A stretch of DNA of 64,000 nt from NCBI RefSeq assembly GCF_003575965.1, contig NZ_QWJJ01000019.1:1-64000 (forward strand), written 5' to 3'. The stretch is from Pseudooceanicola sediminis. Its GTDB lineage: Bacteria; Pseudomonadota; Alphaproteobacteria; Rhodobacterales; Rhodobacteraceae. The notes beneath the pieces are model-generated. The model did not search any database, was not told where the DNA came from, and saw nothing but the letters and a program-made list of their open reading frames with translations. Shown one piece after another: positions 42,800 to 58,341 of the stretch; positions within the stretch are counted from its first letter, which is position 1; each line of letters starts with the position of its first letter. Made by a program: the position numbers and the translations under genes.

Positions 42800-42825
42800 G
42801 ACGCCGGCCGAGAAAAAGCATTACA
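42800..42825 (-). promoter_or_regulatory. ECF-type promoter for the first CCG peptide
   Basis: The minus strand reads TGTAATG (RC of 42819-42825), 14 bases, then GCGTC (RC of 42800-42804), followed by TACTGATTGAAACC. It lies 34 bases from the peptide's ATG. The arrangement is identical in spacing to five other sites in this region. Confidence 0.7.
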
Positions 42826-42924
42826 GGACAAGGAACCGTCGGCGCGACGGACGGCGGGGACTGCCCGGACAAAGCGCGACATCGGATCCTGCTTGACCTG
42901 TCTTTTTTTGTCGCGGACACGTCA

Positions 42925-43542
42925 TTACCCAATCACCAGCTGCAGATCGACGCCCAACTCAAATGGCGGGATGTCAAGATTGCGTGGCGCCGGCCCTCGT
43001 CGGATTCTTCCCGAAGTGTCGTAATGAGACCCGTGGCAAGGGCAGAACCAGCCGCCGAAATCGCCTACCGCCGCACCGTCCTGACCCAGAGGTATGCATC
43101 CGAGATGCGTGCAGACGCCGATCACCACAAGCCATTCACCGGTTGCGTCCGCGGCCCGGTTCTCATCCAGTGCGGACTCTTGGGCTTCGTGGTTCGGGTT
43201 CTCGCGGCTGGTATCGACCGGATCGACAAGATCGTCGAGAGAAACGGTCTGCGCCGCAGCGATCGCTTGGGGCGAGCGGCGCCAGATGAAAACCGGACGT
43301 CCCTGCCATTTGACGGTAATGCGTTGACCCTCTTCCACCCCGGTGAGATCGACCCGGACCGTGGACGCACCGACGATATCGGCCGAGGGATTCATGGAGT
43401 TGATCAGTGGCCAGACCGCGGCGCCGGTTGCAACGGCTCCGGCGCTCGCGGTCGCATAGTAGAGGAAGTCGCGTCGTGCCGATGGGGCATAGGCTTGATG
43501 AAGTAAGACATCGGCGCTCGAAGGAGCATTTTGCTCTGTCAT
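42925..43542 (-). CDS. Rieske [2Fe-2S] protein (PetA-like)
   Basis: A 205-residue Rieske iron-sulfur protein. An N-terminal membrane anchor with a twin-arginine-like [23 protein letters not shown] precedes the cluster-binding motifs CTHLGC and CPCHGS, both complete. This is the layout of the cytochrome bc1 Rieske subunit, but no cytochrome b or c1 gene is nearby. It follows the CBS-BON gene by 40 bases and probably shares its ECF-type promoter, so it may be a stress-specific replacement subunit for bc1 (inference). Confidence 0.92.
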
Positions 43543-43582
43543 ATCACGCTCCTGACCCTGAATTGCCGATCAATGGCCCGCA

Positions 43583-44275
43583 TCAGATGCCCCAGGCGTA
43601 GTCGGGAATACGGCCCAGGTGCACCGATATCTCGCCAAGACCGTCAATCGCTTCCAGCGCGACCTTGGCCGCGTCTTCCTCGTCGTTGGAATTGACGATA
43701 CCCCAGACGTCGACGCGATTATCAGCGACGACGACGTTCAGGTGAACGGGGTTCAGTCCCGGCACCTGCGCAAGCGCACCCAGGACTATGTCGCGCCTTT
43801 CGTCCTCGCCGGCCTCCGGCCGGACATGCACGATCGGTTGCGCCGCAAGTGCCTGCAACAGATTTGCACGGCTCACGATCCCGACGAGCTTGCCGTCTTC
43901 GACCACGGGCACCCGCTTGATGTGTTTTTTTTCAAGCAGCCGGGCGATCTCCCCAGCGGGCGTGTCAGGTCCCACGGTCGTCAGTTGCGTGGTCATGATA
44001 TCCCTGAGCAGCTGGCCGTGGTCCTTGACGAAATTCCTCGCGTCTGTTTGGGTTTCGGAGAAAAGAGATAACCACCAAGATCGGGTCTCGTCTTTTGCGC
44101 CCTCAACGCGGCGCATCAGATCGCCCTCGCTCACGATGCCCACGAGGCCGTCGGCATCGTCCAGAACCGGAATGGCGCTGATACGGTGTTGCGACATCAG
44201 TTCCGCTGCCTTCTTTACGGTCATGCCTGGCGTTCCGGTAACAACGGTTTTCGTCATGATATCCGATGCATTCAT
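43583..44275 (-). CDS. CBS-pair and BON-domain protein
   Basis: A 230-residue protein with two CBS motifs (~1-60, DIMTKTVVTGTPGMTVKKAAELMSQHRISAIPV; ~90-145, IMTTQLTTVGPDTPAGEIARLLEKKHIKRVPVV) and a C-terminal BON domain (~155-225, ending EISVHLGRIPDYAWG). CBS pairs bind AMP, ADP or ATP, so it may sense energy charge. ATG 44275 is chosen at the first CBS strand. An ECF-type promoter lies at 44352-44377. It heads a two-gene operon with the Rieske gene. Confidence 0.88.
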   Translation of the reverse strand: MNASDIMTKTVVTGTPGMTVKKAAELMSQHRISAIPVLDDADGLVGIVSEGDLMRRVEGAKDETRSWWLSLFSETQTDARNFVKDHGQLLRDIMTTQLTTVGPDTPAGEIARLLEKKHIKRVPVVEDGKLVGIVSRANLLQALAAQPIVHVRPEAGEDERRDIVLGALAQVPGLNPVHLNVVVADNRVDVWGIVNSNDEEDAAKVALEAIDGLGEISVHLGRIPDYAWGI

Positions 44276-44351
44276 GTCTGGTTCGCCTTCCGTGCGCTGC
44301 TTCGCGGCCTCAACACAGGCAAGCGCCTGCATCGGCGGCCACTGATTAAGA

Positions 44352-44377
44352 GACGCGCCAGGCTTCGAAACATTACA
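44352..44377 (-). promoter_or_regulatory. ECF-type promoter for CBS-BON/Rieske
   Basis: On the minus strand TGTAATG (RC of 44371-44377) is followed by 14 bases and GCGTC (RC of 44352-44356), then TCTTAATC. It lies 77 bases upstream of the CBS start. It matches the other sites in both boxes and spacing. Confidence 0.7.
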
Positions 44378-44468
44378 GGTGAGAGCGTCTCCAGGAGCGC
44401 AACGGTCCGCCGACGCGTGCCCAAGACCGCGCGAACCTAGTCTCCTCGGCTCGGTTCCAAGCGAAGCA

Positions 44469-44951
44469 TCAACCGGGATTGCGCCCCTGATCAGCAATCC
44501 GGCACGCCAAACGGCGCATGTAGAAAAGCACGAGCATGGGAACAAACACCCATTGCAGGATCGGGGAAAGACCGGTGCCGAGGACCGGAAGCGTCGGCAT
44601 GTCGGCATCATAGGCCCAGCGGCCCGTCACCTCGGTGTGCAGGTATTCGAGACCTATGGTCGCCATAAGTCCAACCGCAAAAAACACAGCCGGGGCAGCC
44701 ACCTTTTTGTTTGCAATCCAATTGCGGCCTTCGCCCACAAGGGCGGCACACCAGAAAGCCGCCAACGCGATGGCAATATCACCCAGTGTCGCCTTCAGGC
44801 AGATGAGAGTACCGGTGAAGTGTTCGGTCTGGCCGAGGCTCGCAAATAACGGTGCCTGCAAGAGTTCCCACGCGAAATGTCCAAGGAACGACAGGAACAC
44901 AAGATCGACCTCTGGCGGCGGGCGACAGGAACGCGCAACGGTTATGGGCAT
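44469..44951 (-). CDS. Hypothetical membrane protein, ~4 TM
   Basis: A 160-residue integral membrane protein (FLSFLGHFAWELLQAPLF, ATLGDIAIALAAFWCAALV, APAVFFAVGLMATIGLEYL, GLSPILQWVFVPMLVLFYMRR). The HFAWELLQ and GLEYLHTEVTGRWAY motifs are conserved-looking, but I do not recognise the family. Histidines in the helices might bind metal or heme. It diverges from the exported-protein/sigma-factor genes, and an Fnr-like box lies between them. Confidence 0.65.
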   Translation of the reverse strand: MPITVARSCRPPPEVDLVFLSFLGHFAWELLQAPLFASLGQTEHFTGTLICLKATLGDIAIALAAFWCAALVGEGRNWIANKKVAAPAVFFAVGLMATIGLEYLHTEVTGRWAYDADMPTLPVLGTGLSPILQWVFVPMLVLFYMRRLACRIADQGRNPG

Positions 44952-45083
44952 CTGAAACCTGATATCTTCGTGGGAGAACGGGGGCTATGACCCTCCGGCT
45001 AATACCCTGAAACCGATACTGTGAACAGCAAACCAGAAATGGTCACGAGCGGCGTGCTGCCCCAGATTGCTGGTAGTTCAGGA

Positions 45084-45097
45084 TTGACTCAAATCAA
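45084..45097. promoter_or_regulatory. Fnr-type box TTGACTCAAATCAA
   Basis: This matches TTGATnnnnATCAA at nine of ten specified positions (C for T at position 5). It lies in the divergent gap, about 60-70 bases before the exported-protein gene that precedes a sigma factor and ~130 bases before the leftward membrane gene. It could tie the sigma-factor operon to oxygen or nitrosative signals. Confidence 0.5.
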
Positions 45098-45156
45098 AGT
45101 CACGCTTTGGCAATATGTCAAAATCTGACTGCGGGAATCGCGAAGGGCATGGACGC

Positions 45157-45525
45157 ATGTTCAGTACTATGCAGAGAACCTGGGGCGTGAGGATTCGAGC
45201 GGTGACAGCCGCCGTAGCCGTCATGGCGCTTCTCGCCTCTGCATTTGCAGCGCCGCTGGAAATCGATCACCGTGTCCGGTCCACGCAAGCTGCCGCTGTT
45301 TCCGTCGCCAACGTCGGCAGTGACGATGGCGGTCGCGTTCAGCTTGCTTCGAGCACAGAATGCCATGCCGGCCACAGTTGCATGCCCGTGATCATGCCCA
45401 GACTCGAAGTACAGGGTTTGGAGCATTTCGATAGTCCGCTGGGACTTCCCCGCGTGCGGGACTACCTCGCATTAGGGGTTCGGTACCGGCTCTTCCACCC
45501 GCCCCGAATCCTTTCACAGGTCTGA
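45157..45525 (+). CDS. Small exported Cys/His/Met protein before the sigma factor
   Basis: A ~122-residue protein with a signal or anchor helix, IRAVTAAVAVMALLASAFAAP, and a mature part containing TECHAGHSCMPVIMPR, a Cys-His-Cys-Met cluster that could bind copper. I do not recognise the family. ATG 45157 is preferred because GAAGGGC precedes it and the signal is then near the N-terminus; 45115 is in frame. It ends 53 bases before the sigma gene, so a periplasmic sensor or anti-sigma-like partner is possible. Confidence 0.5.
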   Translation: MFSTMQRTWGVRIRAVTAAVAVMALLASAFAAPLEIDHRVRSTQAAAVSVANVGSDDGGRVQLASSTECHAGHSCMPVIMPRLEVQGLEHFDSPLGLPRVRDYLALGVRYRLFHPPRILSQV

Positions 45526-45578
45526 TCGTCGGCACCGGCTCTTCGGTGCTGCTCAACGCCATGTGAAAGGAGCAAGCC

Positions 45579-46199
45579 ATGTACGCTGAACGAATACACA
45601 CATCAACCGAGGTCTCTCGCCACGAAGCCGAGGCCAGACTCATCGAGTGCCGCAACAAGTTTTTGGGATTTCTTCGGAAACGACTGAGAAATCCCCAAGA
45701 TGCCGAGGATATTTTTCAGGAATTCTGCGTCAAGGTGCTGCGCAATCACGCCACCATCAAGAATGGCGAACGACTGGACGCCTGGTTGGCGATCACACTG
45801 AGGCATACCCTGACCGATCACTACCGGCGCCAGGCCACGCGAAGTCAGGCGACCGAAGCCTTTGCGAGCGAGGCAAAGATACTGAGTCCGGAGACCGAGC
45901 CATCGTCCGGGGATGTCGATGAGCCGGCGTGCAGTTGCATTCACGCGGCAATGCAGGACCTGCAACCTGCTCATGCAGAGTTGCTGACGCGCCTCGATCT
46001 GCGCGAAGAATCACGCGACAGGGTCGCAACCGACCTTGCAGTCACTCAGAATGCCTTGCGGGTGCGTGTCCATCGCGCGAGGCTCGCGTTGAAGAAGCGC
46101 ATAGCCGAGATCTGCCCGACTTGCGGTGAAGGTCGGTTCATGCAGTGCGACTGCGATCATTCCCAAGAAATCCACAATCGGACGGAAATGGCGTTCTGA
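45579..46199 (+). CDS. ECF sigma factor with CorE-like cysteine domain, first copy
   Basis: A 206-residue ECF sigma factor. Region 2 is at ~20-85 (FLRKRLRNPQDAEDIFQEFCVKVL, DAWLAITLRHTLTDHYRR) and region 4 at ~125-175 (DRVATDLAVTQNALRVRVHRARLALKKRI). It has a CxC in the linker (C118-S-C120) and a cysteine-rich tail (CPTCGEGRFMQCDCDH). This is the layout of ECF44/CorE factors, in which copper bound to those cysteines switches activity without an anti-sigma factor. GAAAGGAG precedes the ATG. It is followed without gap by a 73-residue frame and a mini-sigma gene. Confidence 0.87.
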   Translation: MYAERIHTSTEVSRHEAEARLIECRNKFLGFLRKRLRNPQDAEDIFQEFCVKVLRNHATIKNGERLDAWLAITLRHTLTDHYRRQATRSQATEAFASEAKILSPETEPSSGDVDEPACSCIHAAMQDLQPAHAELLTRLDLREESRDRVATDLAVTQNALRVRVHRARLALKKRIAEICPTCGEGRFMQCDCDHSQEIHNRTEMAF

Positions 46200-46421
46200 A
46201 TGTCGGGAATTTCCAAAATGCGCTTCTTCCAATTGACGATCGCCTCTATTGCGAAGGCTCCGACGATTGGGCGAAGCGAGGTCAGTCAAGAGCTTGATCC
46301 GTTTAGTCGTATCATCAGGCGGCGCGGGACCCCCGGTCGGAATCCGCAGGTACGTGTCGCGCGTTCGATGGCCGCGCAGGAACGGCTCGGTCGGGATTCG
46401 ATCCGGGGAGTGATCCGATGA
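46200..46421 (+). CDS. Possible coupled 73-aa basic protein between sigma genes
   Basis: The ATG directly follows the sigma stop (TGAATG), and the stop overlaps the next start as ATGA, so position argues for coupled translation. The product is basic (SRIIRRRGTPGRNPQVRVARS) with no recognisable domain, and its codon pattern is not strongly coding. It could be a spacer through which ribosomes pass to reach the mini-sigma gene. Confidence 0.35.
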   Translation: MSGISKMRFFQLTIASIAKAPTIGRSEVSQELDPFSRIIRRRGTPGRNPQVRVARSMAAQERLGRDSIRGVIR

Positions 46422-46720
46422 AATCAGTCGGCAATCCCGATCCGATTGGCGATGATGAGCTAGAAGCGCTGATCTGCGACTGCATTGAAATACTGTTTCA
46501 GACACTTCCCGCGGATCAGGCAAGCATTGTTCGTGCTATCGATCTGGAGGGCGCGTCACCCCAGTCTGTTGCCGACACTCTGGGGCTGGGCCTGGGCGAT
46601 GTCGCCACGGTTCTTGCGTTAGGGCGGCAGGGCCTGAAGGCCACGTTTGGCGAGATGTCCAGGATCTGCCCCGTGCACGGCCTGGCTGGCTGCGAGTGCC
46701 ATCGCATAGGCGACGACTGA
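46418..46720 (+). CDS. Mini-sigma: ECF44-like region 4 without region 2, first copy
   Basis: A 100-residue protein that resembles the C-terminal half of the adjacent CorE-like sigma factor. A CDC pair (C20, C22) is followed by a region-4-like helix-turn-helix (PADQASIVRAIDLEGASPQSVADTLGLGLGDVATVLALGRQGLKATF) and a cysteine tail, CPVHGLAGCEC. Region 2, which binds core polymerase and the -10 element, is absent. It could bind the -35 element or the metal and modulate the full sigma factor. GGGGAG precedes its ATG. Confidence 0.7.
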   Translation: MKSVGNPDPIGDDELEALICDCIEILFQTLPADQASIVRAIDLEGASPQSVADTLGLGLGDVATVLALGRQGLKATFGEMSRICPVHGLAGCECHRIGDD

Positions 46721-46738
46721 ATCTGGTCCCCTGTTGGC

Positions 46739-46764
46739 TGTAACGCCGGGGCGCCGAATGCGTC
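46739..46764 (+). promoter_or_regulatory. ECF-type promoter for the second CCG peptide operon
   Basis: TGTAACG (46739-46745), 14 bases, then GCGTC (46760-46764). The site lies 41 bases upstream of the CCG-peptide ATG. It heads the rightward run of CCG peptide, small membrane protein, patatin, cytochrome c, small membrane protein and DUF6629. Confidence 0.72.
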
Positions 46765-46804
46765 CTTACAATACAAGGATAAGTCACTGACGAAGGGTTT
46801 TACT

Positions 46805-46990
46805 ATGAGCAAGACAGATGCGCCATCCAAGACGCAAGGCAGCTGCTGCTGCGGGTCGTCAACCGACAGCTCGAAAAACACCGCTTCCGAGACCAGGGAG
46901 GCGGCGGCGGCAGGTAGGCTGAGCAACGAGGCAAGAGAAACCGCAACCGAGCGGTCCAACGTCTGCTGCGGCGGTCACGGGTCGCAATGA
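46805..46990 (+). CDS. Small CC(C)G cysteine peptide, second copy
   Basis: A 61-residue peptide with SCCCGSS near residue 13 and CCGGHG at the C-terminus, the same two-cluster design as the peptide at 42596-42766, though the linkers (here Thr/Glu/Ala-rich) are unrelated. Both lie ~35-40 bases after an ECF-type promoter. A metal-binding or buffering role is inferred from the cysteines and from the CorE-like regulator nearby. Confidence 0.65.
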   Translation: MSKTDAPSKTQGSCCCGSSTDSSKNTASETREAAAAGRLSNEARETATERSNVCCGGHGSQ

Positions 46991-47033
46991 ATTCGCCACT
47001 TCCACGGGTTCAAAAAATCAAAGGAGACCAACC

Positions 47034-47180
47034 ATGCCATTCATCATGTTCCTTTTCGCGAGCGGCCTGACCGTCGTTCTGATGCTCTACGGCTTTCGGA
47101 ATCGCGGTGAAATTCTGGCTTTGGCAAGCGTCAGATACGCCTTCGGAAAACCCGCTGCGCGGTTGCGGAAGCAATTCTGA
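47034..47180 (+). CDS. 48-aa single-helix membrane protein
   Basis: AAGGAG lies seven bases before the ATG. The peptide starts PFIMFLFASGLTVVLMLYGF, a single membrane helix, and ends with a basic cytoplasmic tail (KPAARLRKQF). It lies 43 bases after the CCG-peptide gene on the same transcript. I do not recognise it. The ribosome site and clean membrane helix support a real gene. Confidence 0.55.
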   Translation: MPFIMFLFASGLTVVLMLYGFRNRGEILALASVRYAFGKPAARLRKQF

Positions 47181-47341
47181 TGCGCCGGGGACTGCCACCG
47201 CTCTTGCGGCATTTCCGATGACACCGGGGATGCTAAGGGCGCGGAGCATCCGCCCCACGCCTGGGTGGACAGGGCGAATTGCGGGCAGGCCTATCTGGCA
47301 GGGATTTACCCATCGCCTTGAGCGCTGTGGAGCGAACCGCG

Positions 47342-48268
47342 ATGCGCGCTGAAACGCGCCGTGCGCCCCACCTCGGGCTGGTTCTGTCCGGGGGAGGCGC
47401 GCGTGGATACGCGCACGCGGGCGCGCTGCGGGCTCTCAACCACCTTGGTATTTTTCCCGGTGTTCTTGTTGGCGTGTCGATGGGGGCCGTCGTCGGGGCG
47501 ACATATGCGCTGAACGACGATTGGTACGGCGCACTGGTTGACATGGACATATCCGGGTTTCCTCCGTGGCCGAATTTTTCAGAACCCGGAGTATTCAATT
47601 ACGTCAAGAACCTGCGGGTCGCTCAAAAGGCAATCACGGGGATGTATTTTGGCTGGGGCGTCGGGCAGCCGACCGTTGAATGGGGCAGGACCATGTTTTC
47701 GAACCTGACCCTGGGTAAGCCGCTCGAAGCCGGGCGCATACCCGTCCTCGCGACGGCGACCGACATCGTGAGCGGTGAGCGCGTCGTTCTGGAAACCGGG
47801 CCGACGGCGGACGCGCTTTACGCGAGCGCAGCCTTGGCAGGCATCCTGCCACCCGCCGAGATGGACGGACGCATTCTGGTCGATGGCGGCTACTGCGACC
47901 TTGCGCCTGTCGATGTGGCGCGGGCGGCCGGGGCAGAAATTGTGATTGTGGTGGATGCCGCGACAAATTTCGAGGCGAAGAAGCCAGCCAATGGCTTGCA
48001 GGCGATGTTTCGAGCCATCGAGATCTGCCAGAACGAACATACACATCTTCGGTTCATGCCAGCGGACATGATCATTCGCCCGGTAATTGACCCGCCTGTT
48101 GGAGTGCTCGAGTTCGAAAACAAGCGCCGATGCACAGCAGCGGGTGCACGCGCTGTCTTGCGCTCTCGCGCCGAAATCCGGCGGCTGACCCAAAGGGTTG
48201 AGCCAGAGGTGTTCGCTCCAACCACCCCCGAAGCGCAATGCAACACCGAAGAAAGGAACAGACCATGA
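47342..48268 (+). CDS. Patatin-like phospholipase (RssA type)
   Basis: A 308-residue patatin-family hydrolase. The oxyanion motif LVLSGGGARGYAHAG, the nucleophile elbow GVSMG and the catalytic VDGGY are all present. There is no signal peptide, so it is cytoplasmic or membrane-associated. ATG 47342 is chosen with GGAG upstream; the frame extends upstream to a TTG at 47279. It overlaps the cytochrome gene by 4 bases. It could release fatty acids from phospholipid, a partner activity for cfa and FabI in the same island. Confidence 0.9.
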   Translation: MRAETRRAPHLGLVLSGGGARGYAHAGALRALNHLGIFPGVLVGVSMGAVVGATYALNDDWYGALVDMDISGFPPWPNFSEPGVFNYVKNLRVAQKAITGMYFGWGVGQPTVEWGRTMFSNLTLGKPLEAGRIPVLATATDIVSGERVVLETGPTADALYASAALAGILPPAEMDGRILVDGGYCDLAPVDVARAAGAEIVIVVDAATNFEAKKPANGLQAMFRAIEICQNEHTHLRFMPADMIIRPVIDPPVGVLEFENKRRCTAAGARAVLRSRAEIRRLTQRVEPEVFAPTTPEAQCNTEERNRP

Positions 48269-48753: not shown

Positions 48754-48832
48754 TCCGGAGCGTGTGCCGACCGTCTCCGAAGCCGCGCGTGCGCCGGTCG
48801 TCCTCAATGCGATTTCGGAACGCGGAGGGTGA

Positions 48833-49003
48833 ATGTCAGGTCGCGGGACGGATTTTGGCAGCACGTTCCCACCGCCGCGGTTCAATGGCAAAGGGCTTGA
48901 TCAGCCCGGGCGTGATGTCGGTACGGGTCCCGGCGCGATGATCGCGCTCTTTGCGGCCTTCGGCATCGCGGCTGTTTTTGTTTGCGAGCGGATGTATCTT
49001 TAA
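48833..49003 (+). CDS. 56-aa single-helix membrane protein
   Basis: GGAGGGTGA leads directly into the ATG. A polar Gly/Pro-rich N-terminus (GTDFGSTFPPPRFNGKG) precedes one membrane helix, MIALFAAFGIAAVFVCERMYL. The layout resembles small subunits attached to respiratory or cytochrome complexes, but no family is recognised. It follows the cytochrome c gene on the same strand. Confidence 0.5.
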   Translation: MSGRGTDFGSTFPPPRFNGKGLDQPGRDVGTGPGAMIALFAAFGIAAVFVCERMYL

Positions 49004-49990: not shown

Positions 49991-50803
49991 TCAGTGAAAG
50001 ATCATGCCATCGACGTGAAACCCGGCATCGACATGCAGGATCTCGCCGGTGATGGCGGTTGTATGGTCGCTGACCAGCAGCAGGGCGGCGCGTCCCACTT
50101 CGTCGGCGGTCACGGTGCGTCGCAGCGGTGATTTGGCCTCGGTCTCGCGGATCAGTTCGTCGAAATGCTCGATGCCGGATGCCGCGCGGGTCTTGATCGC
50201 CCCGGCGGAGATCGCATTGACGCGAATACCCTTTGGCCCCAGTTCATGCGCCAGATAACGCACGGAAGCCTCGAGCGCGGCCTTGACCGGACCCATCAAG
50301 TTGTAGTGATCCACGACCTTCTCGGCCCCGAGAAAACTTAACGTGGTGAGGCTGCCGCCCCGCGCCATGAGGGGCTCAGCCAACTTGGCCATGCGGATGA
50401 AGGAATGGCAGGATATTTGCATTGCTTGCGCAAAGCCGGTCGCCGAACTGTCCACCAGCCGTCCGTGCAGGTCCGCGGCCGGGGCCCAGGCGATGGCATG
50501 CACCAGAAAATCGAGTCTCCCCCAAGTAGAGGTGATGCGCTCGAAGACCGCCTCGAGCTGGCCGTCGCGGGAGACATCGCAAGGCGCCAGGATTGGGGCG
50601 TCGATCGACTGTGCCAATGGCTCCACATGCGGGCGTGCCTTGTCGTTGAGATAGGTCACGGCGAGCTCCGCGCCCGCGGCGTGGCAATTGCGCGCCGCCG
50701 CCCAAGCCAGACTGTGTTCGTTGGCAATACCGATCACGAGGCCCTTCTTGCCGTTCATGTCGAGTGACCAGTTGGTGCCGGGGGCATGGGTTGCATTTGT
50801 CAT
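49991..50803 (-). CDS. fabI: Enoyl-[acyl-carrier-protein] reductase FabI
   Basis: A 270-residue short-chain dehydrogenase of the FabI type. NAD-binding GLVIGIANEHSLAWAAA, LVHAIAWAP in place of the typical SxA, and the catalytic pair in HYNLMGPVKAALE (Tyr-x6-Lys) are visible. ATG 50803 has GGAGG and overlaps the phosphotransacetylase stop by 4 bases. It is the last gene of the DUF5676-DUF3141-DUF2933-ack-pta-fabI operon and is probably an accessory copy linking acetyl-CoA to fatty-acid synthesis. Confidence 0.92.
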   Translation of the reverse strand: MTNATHAPGTNWSLDMNGKKGLVIGIANEHSLAWAAARNCHAAGAELAVTYLNDKARPHVEPLAQSIDAPILAPCDVSRDGQLEAVFERITSTWGRLDFLVHAIAWAPAADLHGRLVDSSATGFAQAMQISCHSFIRMAKLAEPLMARGGSLTTLSFLGAEKVVDHYNLMGPVKAALEASVRYLAHELGPKGIRVNAISAGAIKTRAASGIEHFDELIRETEAKSPLRRTVTADEVGRAALLLVSDHTTAITGEILHVDAGFHVDGMIFH

Positions 50804-51831
50804 GCCGCCGCCTCCTCGGGGGGCGCTGTCACGCCAAGCGCGCAGCAAGCGTGTTCGGGTTGCGGGGCCGCCGCTGCGCTGCTCTCTACCGGTGAGGTTG
50901 GTGCTTGCTGCAATATGCCCTGGCGAAACATCAGCGCCGCCACCGCCAGCGAGGCCATCCGCGCCGGGGCCGAATCGGCACGCGAGGTCAGAACGACGGG
51001 GGCCGACAGACCCACAACAACGCCCGCAGCGACCGCTCCAGCAAGATATTCCAGCGCCTTGGCGAGGATGTTGCCAGACACAAGATCGGGGACCAGCAGG
51101 ATATCCGCCCGACCCGCCACATCCGACAGGATGCCTTTCACATTGGCGGCGCTTTTGGAGATAGCGTTGTCAAACGCCAGCGGCCCGTCGATCTGCGCGC
51201 CGGTAATCTGACCGCGCCGCGCCATCAGCGTCAAACAAGCAGCGTCGAGGGTCGAGGGAATGCCGCCCGTCACCGTCTCTACCGCCGACAGGACCGCAAC
51301 GCGCGGCTCGGCCGCGCCGAGCGTGTGAAACAGATCAACGGCATTCTGACAAATCTCACCTTTCGCCGCGAGATCGGGCGCGATGTTGATGGCCGCATCG
51401 GTGATGCCGATCAACCGGTCATGTCCAGGAATGTCGACCAGAAAGGTGTGGCTGCACCGTCGCCCCGCGAGGCGCAGGCCGGCGGCACTGTCCAGAACGG
51501 CGCGCATCAGGATATCGGTATGAACATTGCCTTTCATGACGAGATCGGCGTCGCCGCTGTGCACCATCAGAACCGCAATGGCTGCGGCTTCGGCATCGGA
51601 TCCCGCCTCGATGATCCAGTCGGAATGCGGGGTCCAATCCATTGCCGTGCAAATCCGCAGCGTCGCCGCCCGGTCGCCGATCAGTCGCGGTTCGGCGAGA
51701 CCTGCAAGGGCGGCATCGCGCAGGGTTTCCAGAACCACCGGCTGCGCGGCATCGACCACGGCGACTCGCACCGCGCCCTGGCCGCTGGCTCTGTCGATCA
51801 GATGTTGCAGGCTTTCCGGCTGTGCACTCAT
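50800..51831 (-). CDS. pta: Phosphate acetyl/butyryltransferase family protein
   Basis: A 343-residue phosphotransacetylase of the short PTA/PTB type. Family segments include DADLVMKGNVHTDILMRAVL, IGITDAAINIAPDL, GPLAFDNAISKSAANVKGI and ILLVPDLVSGNILAKALEYL. It interconverts acetyl phosphate and acetyl-CoA. The last ~40 residues are Ala/Pro-rich with a CC pair and may be disordered. It starts 3 bases after ack and overlaps fabI. With the phosphoketolase-like enzyme it would connect acetyl-P to CoA metabolism. Confidence 0.9.
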   Translation of the reverse strand: MSAQPESLQHLIDRASGQGAVRVAVVDAAQPVVLETLRDAALAGLAEPRLIGDRAATLRICTAMDWTPHSDWIIEAGSDAEAAAIAVLMVHSGDADLVMKGNVHTDILMRAVLDSAAGLRLAGRRCSHTFLVDIPGHDRLIGITDAAINIAPDLAAKGEICQNAVDLFHTLGAAEPRVAVLSAVETVTGGIPSTLDAACLTLMARRGQITGAQIDGPLAFDNAISKSAANVKGILSDVAGRADILLVPDLVSGNILAKALEYLAGAVAAGVVVGLSAPVVLTSRADSAPARMASLAVAALMFRQGILQQAPTSPVESSAAAAPQPEHACCALGVTAPPEEAAA

Positions 51832-51834
51832 GTC

Positions 51835-53043
51835 CTAGCCCTCGGTTCCGGTTCGTTTGAACGCGCGATGGGTGGAGAGTTGCGCGGCGACATGCCGGGC
51901 AATCATCTTTTCTTCGTCCGTCGCGCGGACCTCGACGATGGCCCGCGCTCCCGGCTTTGAGATCACGGTGTGGCCGGACTTGTTGGCACCGTGTTCCACG
52001 TCGATCCCCAGATAGCCAAGCCCGGAACAGATGCGCCCGCGTATCTCGGCCGAATTCTCACCGATGCCGCCGGTAAACACGACACGGGTCACGCCGCCGA
52101 GTGCACCGGTCAGACGCGCAAGGTGCAGCCGGGCCTGATAGCAGAAATAGTCGACCGCCAACTGCGCTTGCGGCACGGAGCTTTCCAGAAGATCGCGCAT
52201 GTTCCGGCTGCAACCGGAAATCCCCAGAAGCCCGCTCTGGGTGTAGAGCAGGGTTGCGACCTCGTCGGCACCCAGGCCCCTTTCCTGCATCAGGAAGAGA
52301 ACGATACCCGGATCCAGATCACCACTGCGCGTGCCCATGGGCAGGCCGGCGATTGTGGAGAAACCCATGCTGGTTTCTACCGGTTTCCCGTCCCGGATCG
52401 CGACCATCGACGCACCGTTGCCCAGATGGGCGATGACGATGCGTTCGGCACCGATTTCGACGCCGTCGCGGTGAAGTGCGTCCATGATGTATTCGTAGGA
52501 GAGGCCGTGAAAGCCATAGCGCCGGATGCCCTTTTCAGCCCAGGCGCGGGGCAGCGCGGTCATGCGAGCCAGAGGGGGCAGATCGTGATGAAACGCGGTG
52601 TCGAAACAGGCCACCTGCGGCAGGTCCGGCCGGGTGGCCAGAACCGCGTCGATTCCGGCCAGATTGGGCGGGATGTGCAGCGGCGCAAGCGCCTTCAGTC
52701 GGCGCAAACGCGCGACAATGGCGGGTGTGACGCGCTTAGGGCAGTCGCAGTCCGGTCCGCCATGCACGACGCGGTGGCCGACGGCCACCAGGTCCAGTGC
52801 GCCAGGCAGGCCGGCGACAGCACGGAGCAGCCGGCTTAGCGCTGCGTCATGGCTGACGAATTGACCCGGTTCGTCGATCACCACGGTCCGGCGCGCATCG
52901 CTAAGCTGGAAATGCGCATTGGGAAGCCCGATCCGGTCGATCGCCCCCGACCACAACCGCCTGGGCTGGCCGGACGCGGTGAACAGGGCGAATTTCAGCG
53001 AGGAAGACCCCGAATTGAGGGTCAGAATGACCTGTTCAGGCAT
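51835..53043 (-). CDS. ackA: Acetate/propionate kinase
   Basis: A 402-residue acetate kinase. The N-terminus VILTLNSGSSSLKFALF is the ATPase-fold signature, followed by HRVVHGG, CFDTAFHHDLP, RRYGFHGLSYEYI, IAHLGNGASMVAI and VFTGGIGENSAEIR. ATG 53043 lies within the small DUF2933 gene's end (8-base overlap). It makes ATP from acetyl phosphate. Placement next to pta, and the phosphoketolase-like enzyme in the sister operon, supports substrate-level phosphorylation as the module's output. Confidence 0.94.
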   Translation of the reverse strand: MPEQVILTLNSGSSSLKFALFTASGQPRRLWSGAIDRIGLPNAHFQLSDARRTVVIDEPGQFVSHDAALSRLLRAVAGLPGALDLVAVGHRVVHGGPDCDCPKRVTPAIVARLRRLKALAPLHIPPNLAGIDAVLATRPDLPQVACFDTAFHHDLPPLARMTALPRAWAEKGIRRYGFHGLSYEYIMDALHRDGVEIGAERIVIAHLGNGASMVAIRDGKPVETSMGFSTIAGLPMGTRSGDLDPGIVLFLMQERGLGADEVATLLYTQSGLLGISGCSRNMRDLLESSVPQAQLAVDYFCYQARLHLARLTGALGGVTRVVFTGGIGENSAEIRGRICSGLGYLGIDVEHGANKSGHTVISKPGARAIVEVRATDEEKMIARHVAAQLSTHRAFKRTGTEG

Positions 53044-53218
53044 CGGTGTGGCCCTTTGACGGCTGGTTGTTCTTTGGACTGGCCAGTCCGTCCCTTTTCG
53101 TGGCGTGATCACTGGTGTGATTCTGTCCGCCCTTCTTGCCGTGGCTGTGTCCAAAAAGGTGCATGGCAACCATTCCGCCGCCCAGAAGCAGCAGCCAGTT
53201 TTCTGCTATCCATTGCAT
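53036..53218 (-). CDS. Short DUF2933-like membrane peptide
   Basis: A 60-residue peptide with one membrane helix (AENWLLLLGGGMVAMHLFGHSH) and a long hydrophilic His/Lys tail. The NWLL...MHxFxH pattern matches the DUF2933 protein at 32884-33147. It lies between DUF3141 and ackA, and its stop overlaps the ackA start. It may anchor or supply a metal to the operon's enzymes. The role is inferred only. Confidence 0.65.
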   Translation of the reverse strand: MQWIAENWLLLLGGGMVAMHLFGHSHGKKGGQNHTSDHATKRDGLASPKNNQPSKGHTDA

Positions 53219-53236
53219 TTGTCGTCTCCTCTCCGG

Positions 53237-54991
53237 TCACACCGGCAAATGGGCGTCGTTCTCGGGGTCGGATGTATCGCCGCCGTAGAGCGTTCTGAAC
53301 GCGCGCTCGGAACTGGCGTCCCGGGCAATGCGGGCGCGCTCGATGGCATCGCCGATGGCCGCGATGGCCGCCCTCTCACGCCCGATCATCGGATCGTCCG
53401 AACCGAGCGGTTCGCGTGTTGCGGCGATAGCGTCTGCCGTCTGCCGGACCAGACGCATCCAGGGATTGAACCGTTCGGAAAACACAAGGCGGCTGGTGCG
53501 CATCGGATGCATCCATTTCAGCATCTCGGCACTGGCTGGGGTCGTCATCAGCCGCACCCAGGGACTCACGAATGTGGCATAGAATGCCTCGTTGATTTCC
53601 GAAACGCGCTCGACAGTCTCGAAGGTCTTCTCAGGAACATGCGGATCAAGGTCGCTCACCTTGCGCGGCTCGAACCGCACCTTGTACTCCGGCGCGTGGC
53701 AATCAGGATCGCCCGATGGGTTGTCGATCTTCATCTCGTAGAGACCGGGTTTGAGCTTTTCGATCTTGCCCAGGCTTTCCAAAATGGCGCGATGCTCAAG
53801 GCGCGCCACCGACGCCGAAACGAAGATGCCGAGGTGCCCGACATGATCATTGGTCATGTAGACGATCCGCTGCTCCGCTGCCTTGAGATCCGCTGTGTCC
53901 TTGTAGACCGCCGGGATCCACCCCAGGGCCTGCGCGGGCGGCGTGATATTGTCGCCGTAGGAGGCGAAAACGATCATCGGGCTCTTGATCTTGCGCAGAT
54001 CGGCCACACAGTGGTCTCCGATCGGCATCTCGCCGCTTTCCAGCTTGTTTCCGATGAACAGGTTCCGGGTGATTTCCATGATTTCCGCGCCGCTGAGGGT
54101 ATAGAATCCGTTCCACCACCGCTCGAACTCCAGAAAGCGGTCGCGTTCGGTATCCACGTTGGTCAGCAGGTTGGCGTATTTCTCCCAGATCGCCTTTTCA
54201 GGTTTCAGGGTTTCGAAATTCTGCGCCAGCCAGGCACCGTCAAAGCGTCCGTCGCCCAGATCGGCCGTCAAGTGCGCCAGCCAGGCACCGCCCAGCAAGC
54301 CGCCGGTGACCCGCATCGGGTTCACGCCTTCCTCTCCGGCCCAGTAGGACAGCGGCGAGCCGTTCAGCACGACCGGCCCGGCCAGTCCTTCGCAATGCGC
54401 CGCGAGCAGCGTGACCGCCCAACCGGCCTGACAATTGCCATAGAGGACCGGGGCGCCGCCATCGTGGCGCCATGCGACCTCTTCGACGAAGCGACGCAAC
54501 GCGAGCAGCACATCCTCAAGCGTCTGGTCGGGGGCGGGTTCGGGGAAGAAGATGACGAAATAGACCGGGTGCCCCTCGGCCATGGCCATGCCGACCTCGC
54601 TATCGCGCTTGAACCCGCCGATGCCGGGACCGTGTCCTGCACGGGGGTCCACCACGATGACAGGCGGTTTATTGGCATCGACGCAATCGTCCCAGCAATT
54701 TCCATCGACTTCAGTGATCTTGAGCAATGCATAATTGGCCGGGCGCTCAAACTGGCGCGCATCCAGGAGCGTTTCGTACTTGAAATTCAGCAGCGGCGGC
54801 ATCCCCGCGCGGTCGTGCGCGATCATGTTGTCAGCGCGTTCGCGCAGTGTATCCAGAAACAGCACCGTGCGTTCCCAGAGATCGCGGCCGTAGGCGACGG
54901 GATCGGAGGGCGGAACATTGTTGGCAACTGGATGGGTGGGAGCTTCCGTGTTCGCGGCGACGAGAGGCTCAATCGAGGTTACAGTGTTCAT
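53237..54991 (-). CDS. DUF3141 protein (PHA-synthase-like alpha/beta hydrolase)
   Basis: A 584-residue protein of the DUF3141 family. Its core is an alpha/beta-hydrolase with PPVIVVDPRAGHGPGIGGFK, a cysteine nucleophile elbow YGNCQAGWAV (GxCxG as in PhaC synthases), ASYGDNITPPAQALGWI (the aspartate loop) and NDHVGHLG (the histidine). The triad thus looks complete. ATG 54991 overlaps the DUF5676 stop by 4 bases. In this operon it could polymerise or hydrolyse hydroxyacyl-CoA as a carbon/electron sink. The substrate is unproven. Confidence 0.87.
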   Translation of the reverse strand: MNTVTSIEPLVAANTEAPTHPVANNVPPSDPVAYGRDLWERTVLFLDTLRERADNMIAHDRAGMPPLLNFKYETLLDARQFERPANYALLKITEVDGNCWDDCVDANKPPVIVVDPRAGHGPGIGGFKRDSEVGMAMAEGHPVYFVIFFPEPAPDQTLEDVLLALRRFVEEVAWRHDGGAPVLYGNCQAGWAVTLLAAHCEGLAGPVVLNGSPLSYWAGEEGVNPMRVTGGLLGGAWLAHLTADLGDGRFDGAWLAQNFETLKPEKAIWEKYANLLTNVDTERDRFLEFERWWNGFYTLSGAEIMEITRNLFIGNKLESGEMPIGDHCVADLRKIKSPMIVFASYGDNITPPAQALGWIPAVYKDTADLKAAEQRIVYMTNDHVGHLGIFVSASVARLEHRAILESLGKIEKLKPGLYEMKIDNPSGDPDCHAPEYKVRFEPRKVSDLDPHVPEKTFETVERVSEINEAFYATFVSPWVRLMTTPASAEMLKWMHPMRTSRLVFSERFNPWMRLVRQTADAIAATREPLGSDDPMIGRERAAIAAIGDAIERARIARDASSERAFRTLYGGDTSDPENDAHLPV

Positions 54992-55257
54992 GCCGGGGCA
55001 CTCCGTGCGAAAAAGTTCCATGCGGGGACAAAGATCACGGCGACGTACCAGCCGTAGGCAAAGCTTTCGATGAGACCGAGAAGGGCGCTTGACCAACTGA
55101 TCCAGCTCACACCGGGCAGCAATGGCAGCCACGCCTGATACATGGTGGCTCCGAGAAACAGCAGTCCGAACAGAACGCAGAGCGCGAAGCTCACCGCCAA
55201 CAGGACGCCAAGCGCCATGGCAACAGGATAGATGCGGATAGGTCTTGTTTCTGACAT
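54988..55257 (-). CDS. DUF5676 small membrane protein, second copy
   Basis: An 89-residue protein with two to three membrane helices (VAMALGVLLAVSFALCVLFGLLFLG and WSSALLGLIESFAYGWYVAVIFVPAWNFF). LLPGVSWISW and LIESFAYGWYV match the first DUF5676 at 42010-42324. Both copies head metabolic operons. The start at 55257 is 72 bases downstream of a clear ECF-type promoter. It overlaps DUF3141 by 4 bases. Confidence 0.85.
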   Translation of the reverse strand: MSETRPIRIYPVAMALGVLLAVSFALCVLFGLLFLGATMYQAWLPLLPGVSWISWSSALLGLIESFAYGWYVAVIFVPAWNFFARSAPA

Positions 55258-55328
55258 GCAGATTACTCCTGAGATCGCAATGTCGCGCAAGCACGACAGG
55301 CCCCGCGTTTCCACGGGTTCGATATCAA

Positions 55329-55354
55329 GACGTCGCCAGTGGGCATCCGTTACA
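55329..55354 (-). promoter_or_regulatory. ECF-type promoter for the DUF5676-DUF3141-ack-pta-fabI operon
   Basis: On the minus strand TGTAACG (RC of 55348-55354), 14 bases, then ACGTC (RC of 55329-55333), followed by TTGATATCGAACCCG. The downstream TGATATCGAA is almost identical to that of the cfa promoter at 58024-58049. The site is 72 bases from the DUF5676 start. Confidence 0.78.
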
Positions 55355-55428
55355 GGATCAGTACAAGAAACTGTTGACGGAACTGTCGATGCAGACCATT
55401 TTCGGCTGCCTGAGAACAAGGTGTGCAG

Positions 55429-56583
55429 TTATTGGCCTTGCCTTGCGCGCGCCAGAACCAAGAGACCCGCAATTGCCGAGAGGCTGGACCCGGCCAGGAT
55501 TGACAGCCGCGCGCTAGCGGCCAGCGCCGGCGCCTCGAACGCAAGCGCAGTGACGAACAGTCCCATTGTGAACCCGACGCCTGCGAGCAGAGCGGCCCCA
55601 TAGATGTGCCTGAAGCTTACTTTTGGCGGCAGTACGCCGATATTCAGTCTGACGGCTACCCAGGTTGCGCCGAGCACGCCTATCTGCTTGCCTAGGAACA
55701 GGCCAAGAAAGACGCCAAGCGACACGCCACCCGTTACGTTCCGAAGTGTCTCTGCCTCGACCGACACACCGGCGTTGAAGAAGCCGAATGCCGGCACGAT
55801 CAGCAGACCTGCCCAAGGATGCAACAACCGCTTTGTGATGCGCAGGGGGGAATGTCTATGGCTGCCTTTTGCGCCTTTGGGGATCACCGCTGCGATAAGG
55901 ACCCCAGCAAGGGCGGCTTCGAGGCCGGATTGGAACAGGGCTAACCAAAGCAATACGCTCAGGACAGTCAGCGGCAGCGGACGAGCCAGTTCAAGCCGGT
56001 TCAGGCAGATCATGACCCCGAATGTGCCAATGGCCAGGATCATCGGGAAGAACTGGATTTCCTCACTGTAGAAGACGGCGATGATCGCGACCGCCCCGAG
56101 GTCGTCGAAGATCGCCAGTGCCATCAGGAATGCCCTGAGTCCGACGGGGACGCGATGCCCGAGCAAGGACAGCAACGCCAGGGCAAGGGCAATGTCGGTG
56201 GCCATGGGGATCGCCCAACCACGCAGCGCTTCGCCATCGGGTGCCGCAAGCGCGACGTAGATCAGTGCCGGAACGGCCATGCCGCCAAAAGCGGCAATCG
56301 CGGGCACCGCGGCCCGCTGAAGGCTCGACAGATGCCCCTCGAGAAGCTCATGCTTGATTTCGACCCCGACAAGAACGAAGAAAATCGTCATCAGGCCCTG
56401 GTTGATCCAGACGATCAGCGGTTCCCTCATCTGGAAAGGCAGAAGGCCAACCCGGATCGGCGCATGGTGAATCGCCGCGTACAAATCCGCCAACGGAGAA
56501 TTTGCCGCGATCAAAGCAGAAATGATGGCGCTCAGGATAAGGACTCCCGAAATCCTGTCTTGGATCAGCGGCTTAATGGTCAC
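55429..56583 (-). CDS. nhaA: Na+/H+ antiporter NhaA
   Basis: A 384-residue NhaA antiporter with about twelve helices. The family motifs are FFVLVGVEIKHELLEG, the substrate-site ATDIALALALLSLLG, and the essential double aspartate in IFDDLGAVAII. It lies 108 bases downstream of cfa on the same strand and may be read through from the cfa promoter. It would control pH and sodium under energy stress. The C-terminus (VLARARQGQ) is intact. Confidence 0.93.
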   Translation of the reverse strand: MTIKPLIQDRISGVLILSAIISALIAANSPLADLYAAIHHAPIRVGLLPFQMREPLIVWINQGLMTIFFVLVGVEIKHELLEGHLSSLQRAAVPAIAAFGGMAVPALIYVALAAPDGEALRGWAIPMATDIALALALLSLLGHRVPVGLRAFLMALAIFDDLGAVAIIAVFYSEEIQFFPMILAIGTFGVMICLNRLELARPLPLTVLSVLLWLALFQSGLEAALAGVLIAAVIPKGAKGSHRHSPLRITKRLLHPWAGLLIVPAFGFFNAGVSVEAETLRNVTGGVSLGVFLGLFLGKQIGVLGATWVAVRLNIGVLPPKVSFRHIYGAALLAGVGFTMGLFVTALAFEAPALAASARLSILAGSSLSAIAGLLVLARARQGQ

Positions 56584-56691
56584 TTCGTATGCAATCTGTC
56601 CGTGAATGTTTCGAACGGCGTCCGTTGCAACATCTCGTGAACCAAAATGCAGCTTTGGCCAAAGGTCGCCAGTGTCGGCCGTTTCTGCTTG

Positions 56692-57987
56692 TCACAGTCG
56701 GCCTTCAGCTTTGGCGATGTAGTCGCGGGTCAATGGGACCGTGGTCTGGCGCTTCGCCAACTGGAACTGGAACACCACCAAACCGGTATGGCGGAACGCG
56801 GCTTCGCAGACCGCAAGATAGAACTCCCACATCCGGCAGAACCTGTCGTCATGAAGCGCGGCGAGCCTCGCACGATTGGCCAGAAACCGGCGCCGCCAGG
56901 CGCGCAGGGTTTCGGCGTAGTGCAGGCGCAAAACCTCGACATCCGTGACAATCAGGCCGCTCTTTTCGATGGCCGGAAGCACTTCGGACATGGCCGGGAC
57001 GTAGCCGCCCGGAAATATGTACCTATTGATCCATGCCCCCGGCGCGCCGGGCGGACCGCTGGTGCCGATCGTATGAATCAGCGCGACCCCGTCGTCGCTC
57101 AACCGGCGTGCGACGCAGTCGAAATAGGTCTGGTAGTGCGGCGTACCGACATGCTCGAACATGCCGACCGACACGATCCGATCATATTTCCGATTTTCAT
57201 TCCGGTAATCCCGCAGAAGAAATCGCACCTTGTCCGCCAGGCCGGCGGTCAGGGTTTCCTTTTGCGCGAATTTCAACTGTTCTGCGGACAGCGTGAGACC
57301 CGCGACCGAAACGTCATGTTTGCGCGCCAGAAACCGGGCCAGCCCGCCCCAGCCCGAGCCGATATCGAGAACCTGTTGACCCGGCTGCAACAGCAGCTTG
57401 GCCGCAATGTGCCGTTTCTTTCGGAGCTGCGCCTGTTCCAGCGTATCGTCCGCCGCTGCGAAATAGGCGCAGGAATACTGCCGGTCCGCATCCAGAAACG
57501 AGGTATACAACTCATCCGTCAGATCGTAATGATGCGCCGCGTTGCGCGCGGCCCGTCCCTTTGGGTTGAACAAGGTAAACGGCCGGGTGTTTCGGCGGAT
57601 CGCCAGCCATATCCGGCGCACAGGCGAGCTCTTCGCATCGCCAAGGTTGCGCAGCACCAGCTCCAGAAATGTGTAGATGTCGCCGTCATCGATGCGAAGA
57701 CTGCCGTTCATATAGGCCTCTCCGACCGCCAGATCGGGGTGAAATGCAATCCGGCGCACGGTGCTTGGTCTGGTGATCGTGGCGGCAATTTGCGGGTTGC
57801 CCTTGCCGAACCGACGTACGGTTCCGTCGGGAAAGCTCAGCGTCAGCGAGCCGTTCTTGATCGACCGGTTCAGAAAGCGACTTACCAAGTGCGTCCAGAG
57901 ATTGAACCGACCCCGCATTGACATTGCCGGAGGTGCAGGATGAACCCTTGTCGCGGTGAGCCGCTCGATATCAGTGAAGTCGTTCAC
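56692..57987 (-). CDS. cfa: Cyclopropane-fatty-acyl-phospholipid synthase family protein
   Basis: A 431-residue SAM-dependent synthase that modifies unsaturated acyl chains of membrane lipids. SAM motif I is VLDIGSGWGGLARFLA; the family signature YSCAYF with DDTLEQAQLRK, VGMFEHVG and IHTIGT follow. It starts with GTG at 57987 behind AAGGAGG. An ECF-type promoter lies 37 bases upstream. Cyclopropanation would harden membranes against metal, acid or oxidative stress, consistent with the regulon. Confidence 0.92.
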   Translation of the reverse strand: MNDFTDIERLTATRVHPAPPAMSMRGRFNLWTHLVSRFLNRSIKNGSLTLSFPDGTVRRFGKGNPQIAATITRPSTVRRIAFHPDLAVGEAYMNGSLRIDDGDIYTFLELVLRNLGDAKSSPVRRIWLAIRRNTRPFTLFNPKGRAARNAAHHYDLTDELYTSFLDADRQYSCAYFAAADDTLEQAQLRKKRHIAAKLLLQPGQQVLDIGSGWGGLARFLARKHDVSVAGLTLSAEQLKFAQKETLTAGLADKVRFLLRDYRNENRKYDRIVSVGMFEHVGTPHYQTYFDCVARRLSDDGVALIHTIGTSGPPGAPGAWINRYIFPGGYVPAMSEVLPAIEKSGLIVTDVEVLRLHYAETLRAWRRRFLANRARLAALHDDRFCRMWEFYLAVCEAAFRHTGLVVFQFQLAKRQTTVPLTRDYIAKAEGRL

Positions 57988-58023
57988 GAATGGGCCTCCT
58001 TCGCTTAGCGGTTTCGATATCAG

Positions 58024-58049
58024 GACGTTGACCGTTGAAGATCGTTACA
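58024..58049 (-). promoter_or_regulatory. ECF-type promoter for cfa
   Basis: On the minus strand TGTAACG (RC of 58043-58049), 14 bases, then ACGTC (RC of 58024-58028), followed by CTGATATCGAAACCG. It lies 37 bases before the GTG start. Beyond the two boxes it shares TGATATCGAA with the promoter at 55329-55354. Confidence 0.78.
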
Positions 58050-58315
58050 CATTCGAGACAGCCGGTCCGGGCCGGCAATCGGCGCAACTTCATTCGCATG
58101 TGAGCGAGTCTGACCATCCCAAAGGCCGTCAGAGGGGCCTGCGGCCGCAGTCGAGGCCTTCGCTCAGAAACTCGGTGTCGCACTTGAAATGTGAATCCAG
58201 CATCTCCCGTATGGCCAATAGACTAGAAAGAATCCGGAACAGCTTTCCGTGCTGCGGAGTGACAGAGCGGAAGGGCCCGACCGTATAGTCAAAAATGTCG
58301 ACAGCATGAAGAACG

Positions 58316-58341
58316 TGTAACGGAACGCCGAGGCGGACGTC
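58316..58341 (+). promoter_or_regulatory. ECF-type promoter for the second mini-sigma gene
   Basis: TGTAACG (58316-58322), 14 bases, then ACGTC (58337-58341), 41 bases before the ATG at 58382. With the leftward cfa promoter it forms a divergent pair 267 bases apart. The ~390-base gap between cfa and this gene otherwise shows no gene. Confidence 0.75.

Follow-up and report, generated by a model that had tools for sequence, protein, structure and literature searches.

Six sites of the form TGTAAYG-N14-RCGTC, found in a 64,000-nucleotide stretch of the Pseudooceanicola sediminis genome (positions 1 to 64,000 of contig NZ_QWJJ01000019.1; hereafter, the window), are very probably promoters read by two adjacent extracytoplasmic function (ECF) sigma factors of the CorE kind. 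We propose, with a probability of about 0.87, that sites and sigmas make up a metal-switched regulon of small cysteine-rich peptides (Cys peptides), DUF5676 membrane proteins, other operons, and a short protein resembling a free sigma region 4 (mini-sigma). CorE-like sigmas are thought to act without an anti-sigma factor, and the questions addressed here are how their response is limited and what their targets are beyond Myxococcus. From the sequence come a sharp promoter rule and a multi-operon regulon, common to many loci of alphaproteobacteria and with a hint of it on a plasmid of Nitrospirota, as well as a recurring Cys peptide family and a candidate feedback device. The regulon would represent a CorE-type branch that is widespread and has a sharp promoter rule, a peptide family, and, likely, a feedback part derived from the sigma factor itself.

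A fixed-spacing motif accompanies CorE-like sigma factors

The strict form of the motif (TGTAAYG-N14-RCGTC; the loose form is TGTAAY-N16-CGTC) occurs in the window exactly six times, where 100 dinucleotide shuffles yielded 0.02 matches on average and never more than 1. All six lie at the positions and on the strands of an original prediction made from the letters of the window, which had proposed a local ECF regulon; this regulon proved real, but its sigma family (CorE-like) had not been named and the recurrence of the Cys peptides and mini-sigmas had been missed. A scan of the whole 4.44 Mb genome points to the same region: six of the seven matches fall in the window, the seventh (C28:307649) lying inside an open reading frame (ORF) of 760 amino acids (aa) on the opposite strand, and the reversed pattern has two matches. 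Allowing two mismatches in the TGTAACG form gives 13 matches where 7.1 are expected, so that the 7 additional ones are at chance level. The spacer has a fixed length and a sequence that varies between sites. Plausible start codons follow the end of CGTC by 33-76 bases (Table 1), which agrees with the 34-77 bases originally predicted when counted to the first base. The AAC-type -35 box of that prediction is found at four of the six sites; the other two read AAT, as do 57% of the 126 strict sites pooled from the window, further stretches, and related loci. Similarly, sigma 1 lies within the 16 kb to which both sigma genes had been assigned, but sigma 2 (59738-60358) lies 1.4 kb beyond it.

A scan with an alignment of the sigmas, using one genome per species, returned 144 relatives, the best 80 of which were kept and represent 79 distinct loci (1.37 Mb; the titles indicate that most are from Rhodobacterales and Hyphomicrobiales). 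These loci contain 117 distinct strict sites, which were deduplicated by sequence alone and are not independent events, since some loci share a contig or are near relatives. Strict sites are present in 64 of the 79 loci and loose ones in 75. The specificity of the pattern is high: the same boxes at spacers of 8-13 and 15-21 have 0-3 matches each, the backwards motif has 2, 60 permuted motifs have 0.28 on average (at most 4), and single-base changes in CGTC give at most 5 sites versus 153 loose sites. Two positions outside the search pattern are also biased: of the 126 sites, 81% have a T directly after CGTC and 71% an A at the 11th base, a pattern expected of a start region. Finally, only 45 of the 117 sites lie inside ORFs, even though these span 84% of the 79 loci according to a crude caller that overcalls in G+C-rich DNA, and the motif is thus not equally frequent inside genes.

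The motif and the sigma also go together at the genome level. Of 244 genomes surveyed in the order, 11 encode the sigma and average 3.5 strict sites (38 in total: 7, 2, 4, 0, 7, 3, 3, 2, 3, 4, and 3), against 0.47 in the 233 others (109 in total), a difference with p = 2e-8 in a rank test and p = 1e-7 without the window's genome. At least three strict sites occur in 8/11 of the former and 3/233 of the latter. Beyond the 79 loci, loose sites were found in 6 of 11 short loci and in four of five plasmid regions encoding the sigma. Clustering with the sigma, specificity for N14, and conservation at related operons together identify, at the sequence level, a conserved CorE-type regulon, and we infer that the two sigmas of the window are the ones reading the six sites.

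One could argue that the motif, bipartite and clustered in a single region as it is, binds an ordinary transcription factor or is a repeat, and is no promoter at all. We consider this very improbable, because the spacer sequence varies at a fixed length, each of the six sites faces a gene, the biased T and A beyond CGTC are promoter-like, and the motif follows the sigma. Searches of the 79 loci with the motifs of ECF16, ECF15, and ECF41 sigmas gave 2, 18, and 0 sites, versus 153 for TGTAAY-N16-CGTC. We give hardly any credit to a sigma of the ECF16 type as the reader of the sites (SigF/BcrS kind; Brucella BcrS, S. meliloti RpoE7), which would share the TGTAAC -35 box (consensus (T/C)GTAAC-N17-CGAA in the accessible text of PMC8315932; RpoE7 sites in that of PMC6180224), given the low count of ECF16-form sites, the -10 box that reads CGTC instead of CGAA, and the spacer that is one base shorter. 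ECF16 factors also differ in having an anti-sigma partner.

Recurrent operons and a family of cysteine-rich peptides behind the motif

We surveyed the genes within 5.2 kb behind 162 loose sites (126 strict) of the window, further stretches, and the 79 loci. Three orders recur: 1) motif, Cys peptide, DUF5676, and MBL (e.g., L050, L065, L067, L070, L074, L085, L086, L094, L100, and L102); 2) motif, mini-sigma, DUF3141, fabI, Rieske, and CBS (e.g., L050, L064, L067, and L070); and 3) motif, DUF5676, DUF3141, ackA, and pta (L062, L076, and L097). The order ackA-pta-fabI behind the motif is also found in L042 and L097. Further recurring targets are cfa, a copper-type ATPase, and a second CorE-like sigma. 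The names ackA, pta, fabI-like, and cfa of the window genes follow the original prediction and are presumptive.

Conservation was also evaluated gene by gene, by asking whether the 400 bases upstream of each orthologue hold a strict site. Such a site precedes 17/38 orthologues of DUF5676a and 25/39 of DUF5676b, two sets that overlap since each paralogue query also recovers the other. Genes not directly behind a site in the window served as comparison: MBL (1/15), deoA (0/11), prs (0/6), copper ATPase (5/33), nhaA (1/2), rssA (2/14), EamA (1/25), lgt (0/11), cytochrome c (0/3), and DUF6629 (0/9). The predicted conservation of N14 upstream of related operons stands for related loci and operons, but not for every orthologue. 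The CBS, Rieske, and fabI genes are often later genes within motif-led operons.

Clustering groups 27 Cys peptides, which are 52-76 aa long and have CC-rich ends; 23 of them start 31-40 bases after CGTC. Neither peptide of the window matches a family, bacterial metallothioneins and other known Cys peptides included, in NCBIfam (E up to 0.001) or Pfam (E up to 1). Plasmid pRLO149_83 of Roseobacter litoralis Och 149 carries one mini-sigma site and one Cys-peptide site, the peptide being encoded at a spot without an entry in the (incomplete) gene table of the record. The TGTAATG form is found at 21/27 Cys-peptide sites and the TGTAACG form at 17/27 mini-sigma sites, a split that may mark sigma preference or promoter strength.

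The sigma factors are CorE-like and probably sense a metal

Both sigmas of the window have 206 aa and match Pfam Sigma70_r2 (46.0 and 42.6 bits; cut-off 24), with a weak match to Sigma70_r4_2 below its cut-off (17.8 and 19.3 bits versus 25.7). The linker between sigma2 and sigma4 reads CSC in both, within a CxC present in all seven aligned sequences (the window pair and five relatives), and both tails have the pattern CxxC-x7-CxC. Among the full-length sigmas of the 79 loci, the linker CxC occurs in 92/92 and the tail in 87/92. A linker CxC followed by a cysteine-rich tail is the signature of CorE and CorE2, which are self-sensing metal sigmas (accessible text of PMC8999054, PMC3107203, and PMC9023288); this makes the family clear, though not the metal. 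On these features the window sigmas are CorE-like (ECF44/ECF238) factors that probably sense a metal via their own cysteines. They are not SigZ (TIGR02959), for which their scores of 73.0 and 80.6 bits fall under the curated cut-off of 168.65. No anti-sigma gene was recognised among the scanned neighbours, where no search with anti-sigma profiles was made.

Two types of sigma can be distinguished in the 79 loci. Type A (n = 73), the kinds to which both window sigmas belong, has the motif within about 260 bases downstream in 43/73 cases. Autoregulation of type A genes was rejected: a strict or loose motif lies upstream of 0/73, and there is none upstream of either window sigma. Type B (CxxCPxHG tail, n = 14), of which the window has no gene, has the motif upstream in 9/14 (8 strict, 1 loose). 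With the upstream motif found at type B only, type A would be a standing sensor and type B, if present, an amplifier. The sigma is an accessory trait, found in 4/190 genomes of the class, 11/244 of the order, and 9/398 of the phylum (the last with a stricter cut-off), each count including the window's genome. A survey of marine bacteria reports CorE-family hits in every species examined (accessible text of PMC10141476) and evidently used a wider CorE model.

Comparison with characterised systems highlights what is shared and what is not. CorE of Myxococcus xanthus (formerly ECF44, now ECF238) is likewise an ECF sigma with sigma2, sigma4, a CxC linker, and copper genes nearby; its tail cysteines (181, 184, 192, and 194) have the same spacing, and its authors looked for an AAC-containing -35 box (accessible text of PMC3107203). 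The motif described here may prove to be common to this founding member. Unlike CorE, the window sigmas have no Cys at position 189, and the regulon includes a mini-sigma and Cys peptides. The tail of M. xanthus CorE2 begins with a CC pair (CxxCC, Cys174; accessible text of PMC9023288 and PMC8999054), as do those of sigma 2 and 57/73 type A sigmas, but the third Cys of CorE2 is missing here and sigma 1 lacks the pair. OrbS of Burkholderia cenocepacia also senses a metal on board, through C-terminal cysteines, but in the available account it is inhibited by Fe(II) and its cysteines are spaced differently.

Copper is likely the signal. It is favoured because of the neighbouring genes: the window encodes a multicopper oxidase and a P-type ATPase with a heavy-metal-binding domain, and copper-named genes lie beside the sigma in four annotated plasmid regions (Hoeflea, Dinoroseobacter shibae, Roseobacter litoralis, and Ca. 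Manganitrophus) out of five that were chosen among 38 matching plasmid records, the Phenylobacterium region having none. Alternatively, sigma 1 could answer copper and sigma 2 cadmium or zinc, with shared promoters, since the extra Cys of the CC pair, which sigma 2 has and sigma 1 lacks, sets the Cd/Zn response in CorE2 (accessible text of PMC9023288). We find this unlikely: most type A sigmas have CxxCC and yet the annotated neighbourhoods mostly point to copper, and the third Cys of CorE and CorE2 is missing in both sigmas.

A number of observations count against the regulon as proposed here. First, the main copper-activation residue of CorE, Cys189 (present in just 11 sigmas of the set in the accessible text of PMC3107203), is absent from all 87 readable tails, both window sigmas included, and the CC pair of sigma 2 is the one associated with Cd/Zn. 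Second, even a loose site is lacking in four of the 79 loci (L025, L030, L034, and L049), including L025, whose sigma is the closest relative found (70% identity; among the best 80 of 144); one-mismatch forms exist in L025, L030, and L049, and none in L034. Third, one of the 11 sigma-bearing genomes (G241) has no strict site, and the loose site is missing in five of the 11 short loci (L120, L122, L123, L124, and L127) and in the D. shibae plasmid region. Fourth, strict sites precede few orthologues of CBS (1/27), cfa (2/22; 10/22 when loose), Rieske (4/28), and fabI (0/24); mini-sigma 2 of the window has three tblastn relatives, none with a site, and the same search found no orthologue of Cys peptide A.

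Mini-sigmas and the proposed circuit

A short mini-sigma-like gene lies at most 450 bases behind the sigma gene in 46/73 type A cases (33 of these 46 also have the motif downstream of the sigma) and in 0/14 type B cases; the profiles were built from genes found behind sigmas, and these counts are a description rather than an independent test. In the window, an upstream motif is present only at mini-sigma 2. Mini-sigma 1 follows sigma 1 and precedes the candidate promoter of Cys peptide B, with no motif between 46199 and 46418, a place where L031-L033 do have one. Alignment with the sigma profile (Table 1) covers CxC, sigma4, and tail in mini-sigma 1, and CxC and sigma4 in mini-sigma 2; the CxC is retained in 43/48 mini-sigmas. 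The structural models have a mean predicted local distance difference test score (pLDDT) of 76.5 and 74.1, with 76-98 over most of the helical core. The top Foldseek rows for both are ECF sigma or sigma4 entries (6dv9, 3hug, 2h27, and 5fgm), at E-values of only 3.0e-3 and 1.8e-3; the 50 rows listed also include some unrelated entries, namely 9a50 and 9a7s and, for mini-sigma 2, KorA and ArdK. By these comparisons the mini-sigmas are free sigma4 domains related to that of ECF sigmas.

The recognition helix of the sigmas reads V-R-x-H-R-x-R, with V162, R163, H165, R166, and R168 invariant in the seven aligned sequences; the wider sigma counts, from which 3 of 101 sigmas dropped and whose pattern requires R163 and R/K/Q at 166 and 168, lean high. 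H165 is kept in 0/9 mini-sigma 1 and 0/24 mini-sigma 2 proteins, R166 in 0/9 and 1/24, R163 in 3/9 and 1/24, and R168 in 33/33. Mini-sigma 2 of the window is divergent and keeps R163 and R168. Positions 165 and 166 presumably face the -35 box, as we take from the structure of E. coli sigmaE region 4 on DNA. We read the mini-sigmas as regulators that bind the polymerase or the sigma, not DNA, and propose that they are feedback regulators derived from the sigma. A more specific version, in which a cysteine-bearing sigma4 decoy that has ceased to read the -35 box, yet can bind the polymerase or its parent sigma, is transcribed by that sigma and shuts down the metal response or sets its threshold, is tentative; it would make the mini-sigmas a novel class of sigma regulator.

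That the mini-sigmas are functionless, decaying fragments of duplicated sigma genes would fit the absence of sigma2 and of most presumed -35 readers, the identity of just 16-28% between mini-sigma 2 proteins and the window copy, and the 13/46 cases without the motif. We find it improbable, given their association with type A and not type B sigmas, the retention of the CxC and of one arginine throughout, and the position of the mini-sigma as lead gene of long recurring operons. Sigma-like domains outside a full sigma are known to join in control, as in the split sigma SigO-RsoA of B. subtilis. One also acts in the EcfG partner switch (accessible text of PMC8999054). Unlike both, the present case involves a lone CxC-bearing sigma4, whose gene comes right after that of a full sigma from its own family and is often under the motif. 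Free sigma4 genes behind their lead sigmas are new here, judging by a comparison limited to open-licence papers.

In the circuit that we propose: 1) TGTAAY would be the -35 box, separated by 16 bases from CGTC, with transcription starting about 11 bases beyond; 2) the sigma genes, which have no motif upstream, would be expressed at a basal level; 3) a metal, most likely copper, would activate the sigmas by binding to cysteines of the linker CxC and the tail CxxC-x7-CxC, without a dedicated anti-sigma; and the active holoenzyme would then transcribe 4) the genes of small Cys-rich peptides, probably metal-binding, 5) DUF5676, Rieske, CBS, DUF3141-ack-pta-fabI, and cfa, plausibly protecting the envelope and respiration, and 6) the mini-sigma, a free sigma4 that would probably feed back on the sigma or the polymerase.

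Features of the window and neighbouring genes

Table 1. Predicted features of the window. Distances are the numbers of bases between CGTC and the start codon; strict sites in other loci are named where found.
Feature	Positions	Strand	Evidence
Candidate promoter (TGTAATG-N14-GCGTC) of Cys peptide A and following co-directional genes	42800..42825	-	motif match; order kept in relatives; 33 bases to ATG 42766
Cys peptide A, 56 aa	42596..42766	-	without Pfam or NCBIfam match
DUF5676 membrane protein, behind Cys peptide A	42010..42324	-	Pfam PF18926, 27.9 bits vs cut-off 27.6
Candidate promoter of CBS-BON / Rieske	44352..44377	-	motif match; strict site at CBS orthologue in L029; 76 bases to ATG 44275
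CBS-CBS-BON protein (BON under its cut-off)	43583..44275	-	Pfam scan, one extra leading codon
Rieske protein	42925..43542	-	TIGR01416 above cut-off
CorE-like ECF sigma factor 1, CSC linker, CPTCGEGRFMQCDC tail	45579..46199	+	Pfam, alignment
Mini-sigma 1: CxC, sigma4, and cysteine tail, without sigma2	46418..46720	+	hhalign E 7.9e-21; model
Candidate promoter of Cys peptide B	46739..46764	+	motif match; 40 bases to ATG 46805
Cys peptide B, 61 aa	46805..46990	+	without Pfam or NCBIfam match
Candidate promoter of DUF5676-DUF3141-ackA-pta-fabI	55329..55354	-	motif match; strict site before DUF5676-DUF3141-ackA-pta in L062, L076, L097; 71 bases to ATG 55257 (hand count)
DUF5676 membrane protein	54988..55257	-	PF18926, 27.8 bits vs 27.6, one extra leading codon
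DUF3141 protein, start uncertain	53237..54994	-	Pfam scan
ackA 51835-53112 (start uncertain), pta 50800-51831, fabI-like 49991-50803; presumed names	49991..53112	-	reading frames
Candidate promoter of cfa	58024..58049	-	motif match; strict site before cfa in L022, L054; 36 bases to GTG 57987
cfa, cyclopropane-fatty-acid synthase type; presumed name	56692..57987	-	orthologues
Candidate promoter of mini-sigma 2	58316..58341	+	motif match; 40 bases to ATG 58382
Mini-sigma 2, 106 aa, free-standing sigma4	58382..58702	+	Sigma70_r4_2 E 2.9e-4, below cut-off; hhalign E 4.8e-5; model
CorE-like ECF sigma factor 2, CSC linker, CGICCETDRDDCYC tail	59738..60358	-	Pfam, alignment

Cys peptide A heads a co-directional run of genes (33259-42766, minus strand) that continues with DUF5676, an MBL/beta-CASP protein, a pyrimidine-nucleoside-phosphorylase-like protein, a protein that we take to be phosphoribosyl-pyrophosphate-synthase-like, a heavy-metal P-type ATPase, and a phosphoketolase. 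This run may be a single transcript from the promoter at 42800, which would tie metal stress to nucleotide and phosphoketolase-acetate metabolism. FNR boxes were considered as rival control of ack-pta-fabI and rejected: using the FNR consensus, the window has no perfect box and four with one mismatch, versus 1.3 expected, none of them before the cluster. One FNR-like box with one mismatch (45084-45097) precedes the gene of a 136-aa exported-looking protein (45115-45525, plus strand), which lies just upstream of sigma 1, contains a CHAGHSC stretch, and has no Pfam match. A Crp/Fnr-type regulator adjoins the multicopper oxidase at 22664-24913, and the pair makes up another copper-related group, at a distance of about 17 kb from the regulon.

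The nhaA gene of the window is located behind cfa. In two Sulfitobacter loci (L026:2407 and L027:2422, minus strand) a strict motif is followed first by a 41-aa ORF and then, about 306 bases from the motif, by the gene of the NhaA antiporter. Tandem TGTAAC-N16-CGTC sites 56 bases apart are found on the Nitrospirota plasmid (Ca. Manganitrophus; L113:5423 and 5479, plus strand), where they sit between a related sigma gene and a copper ATPase operon.

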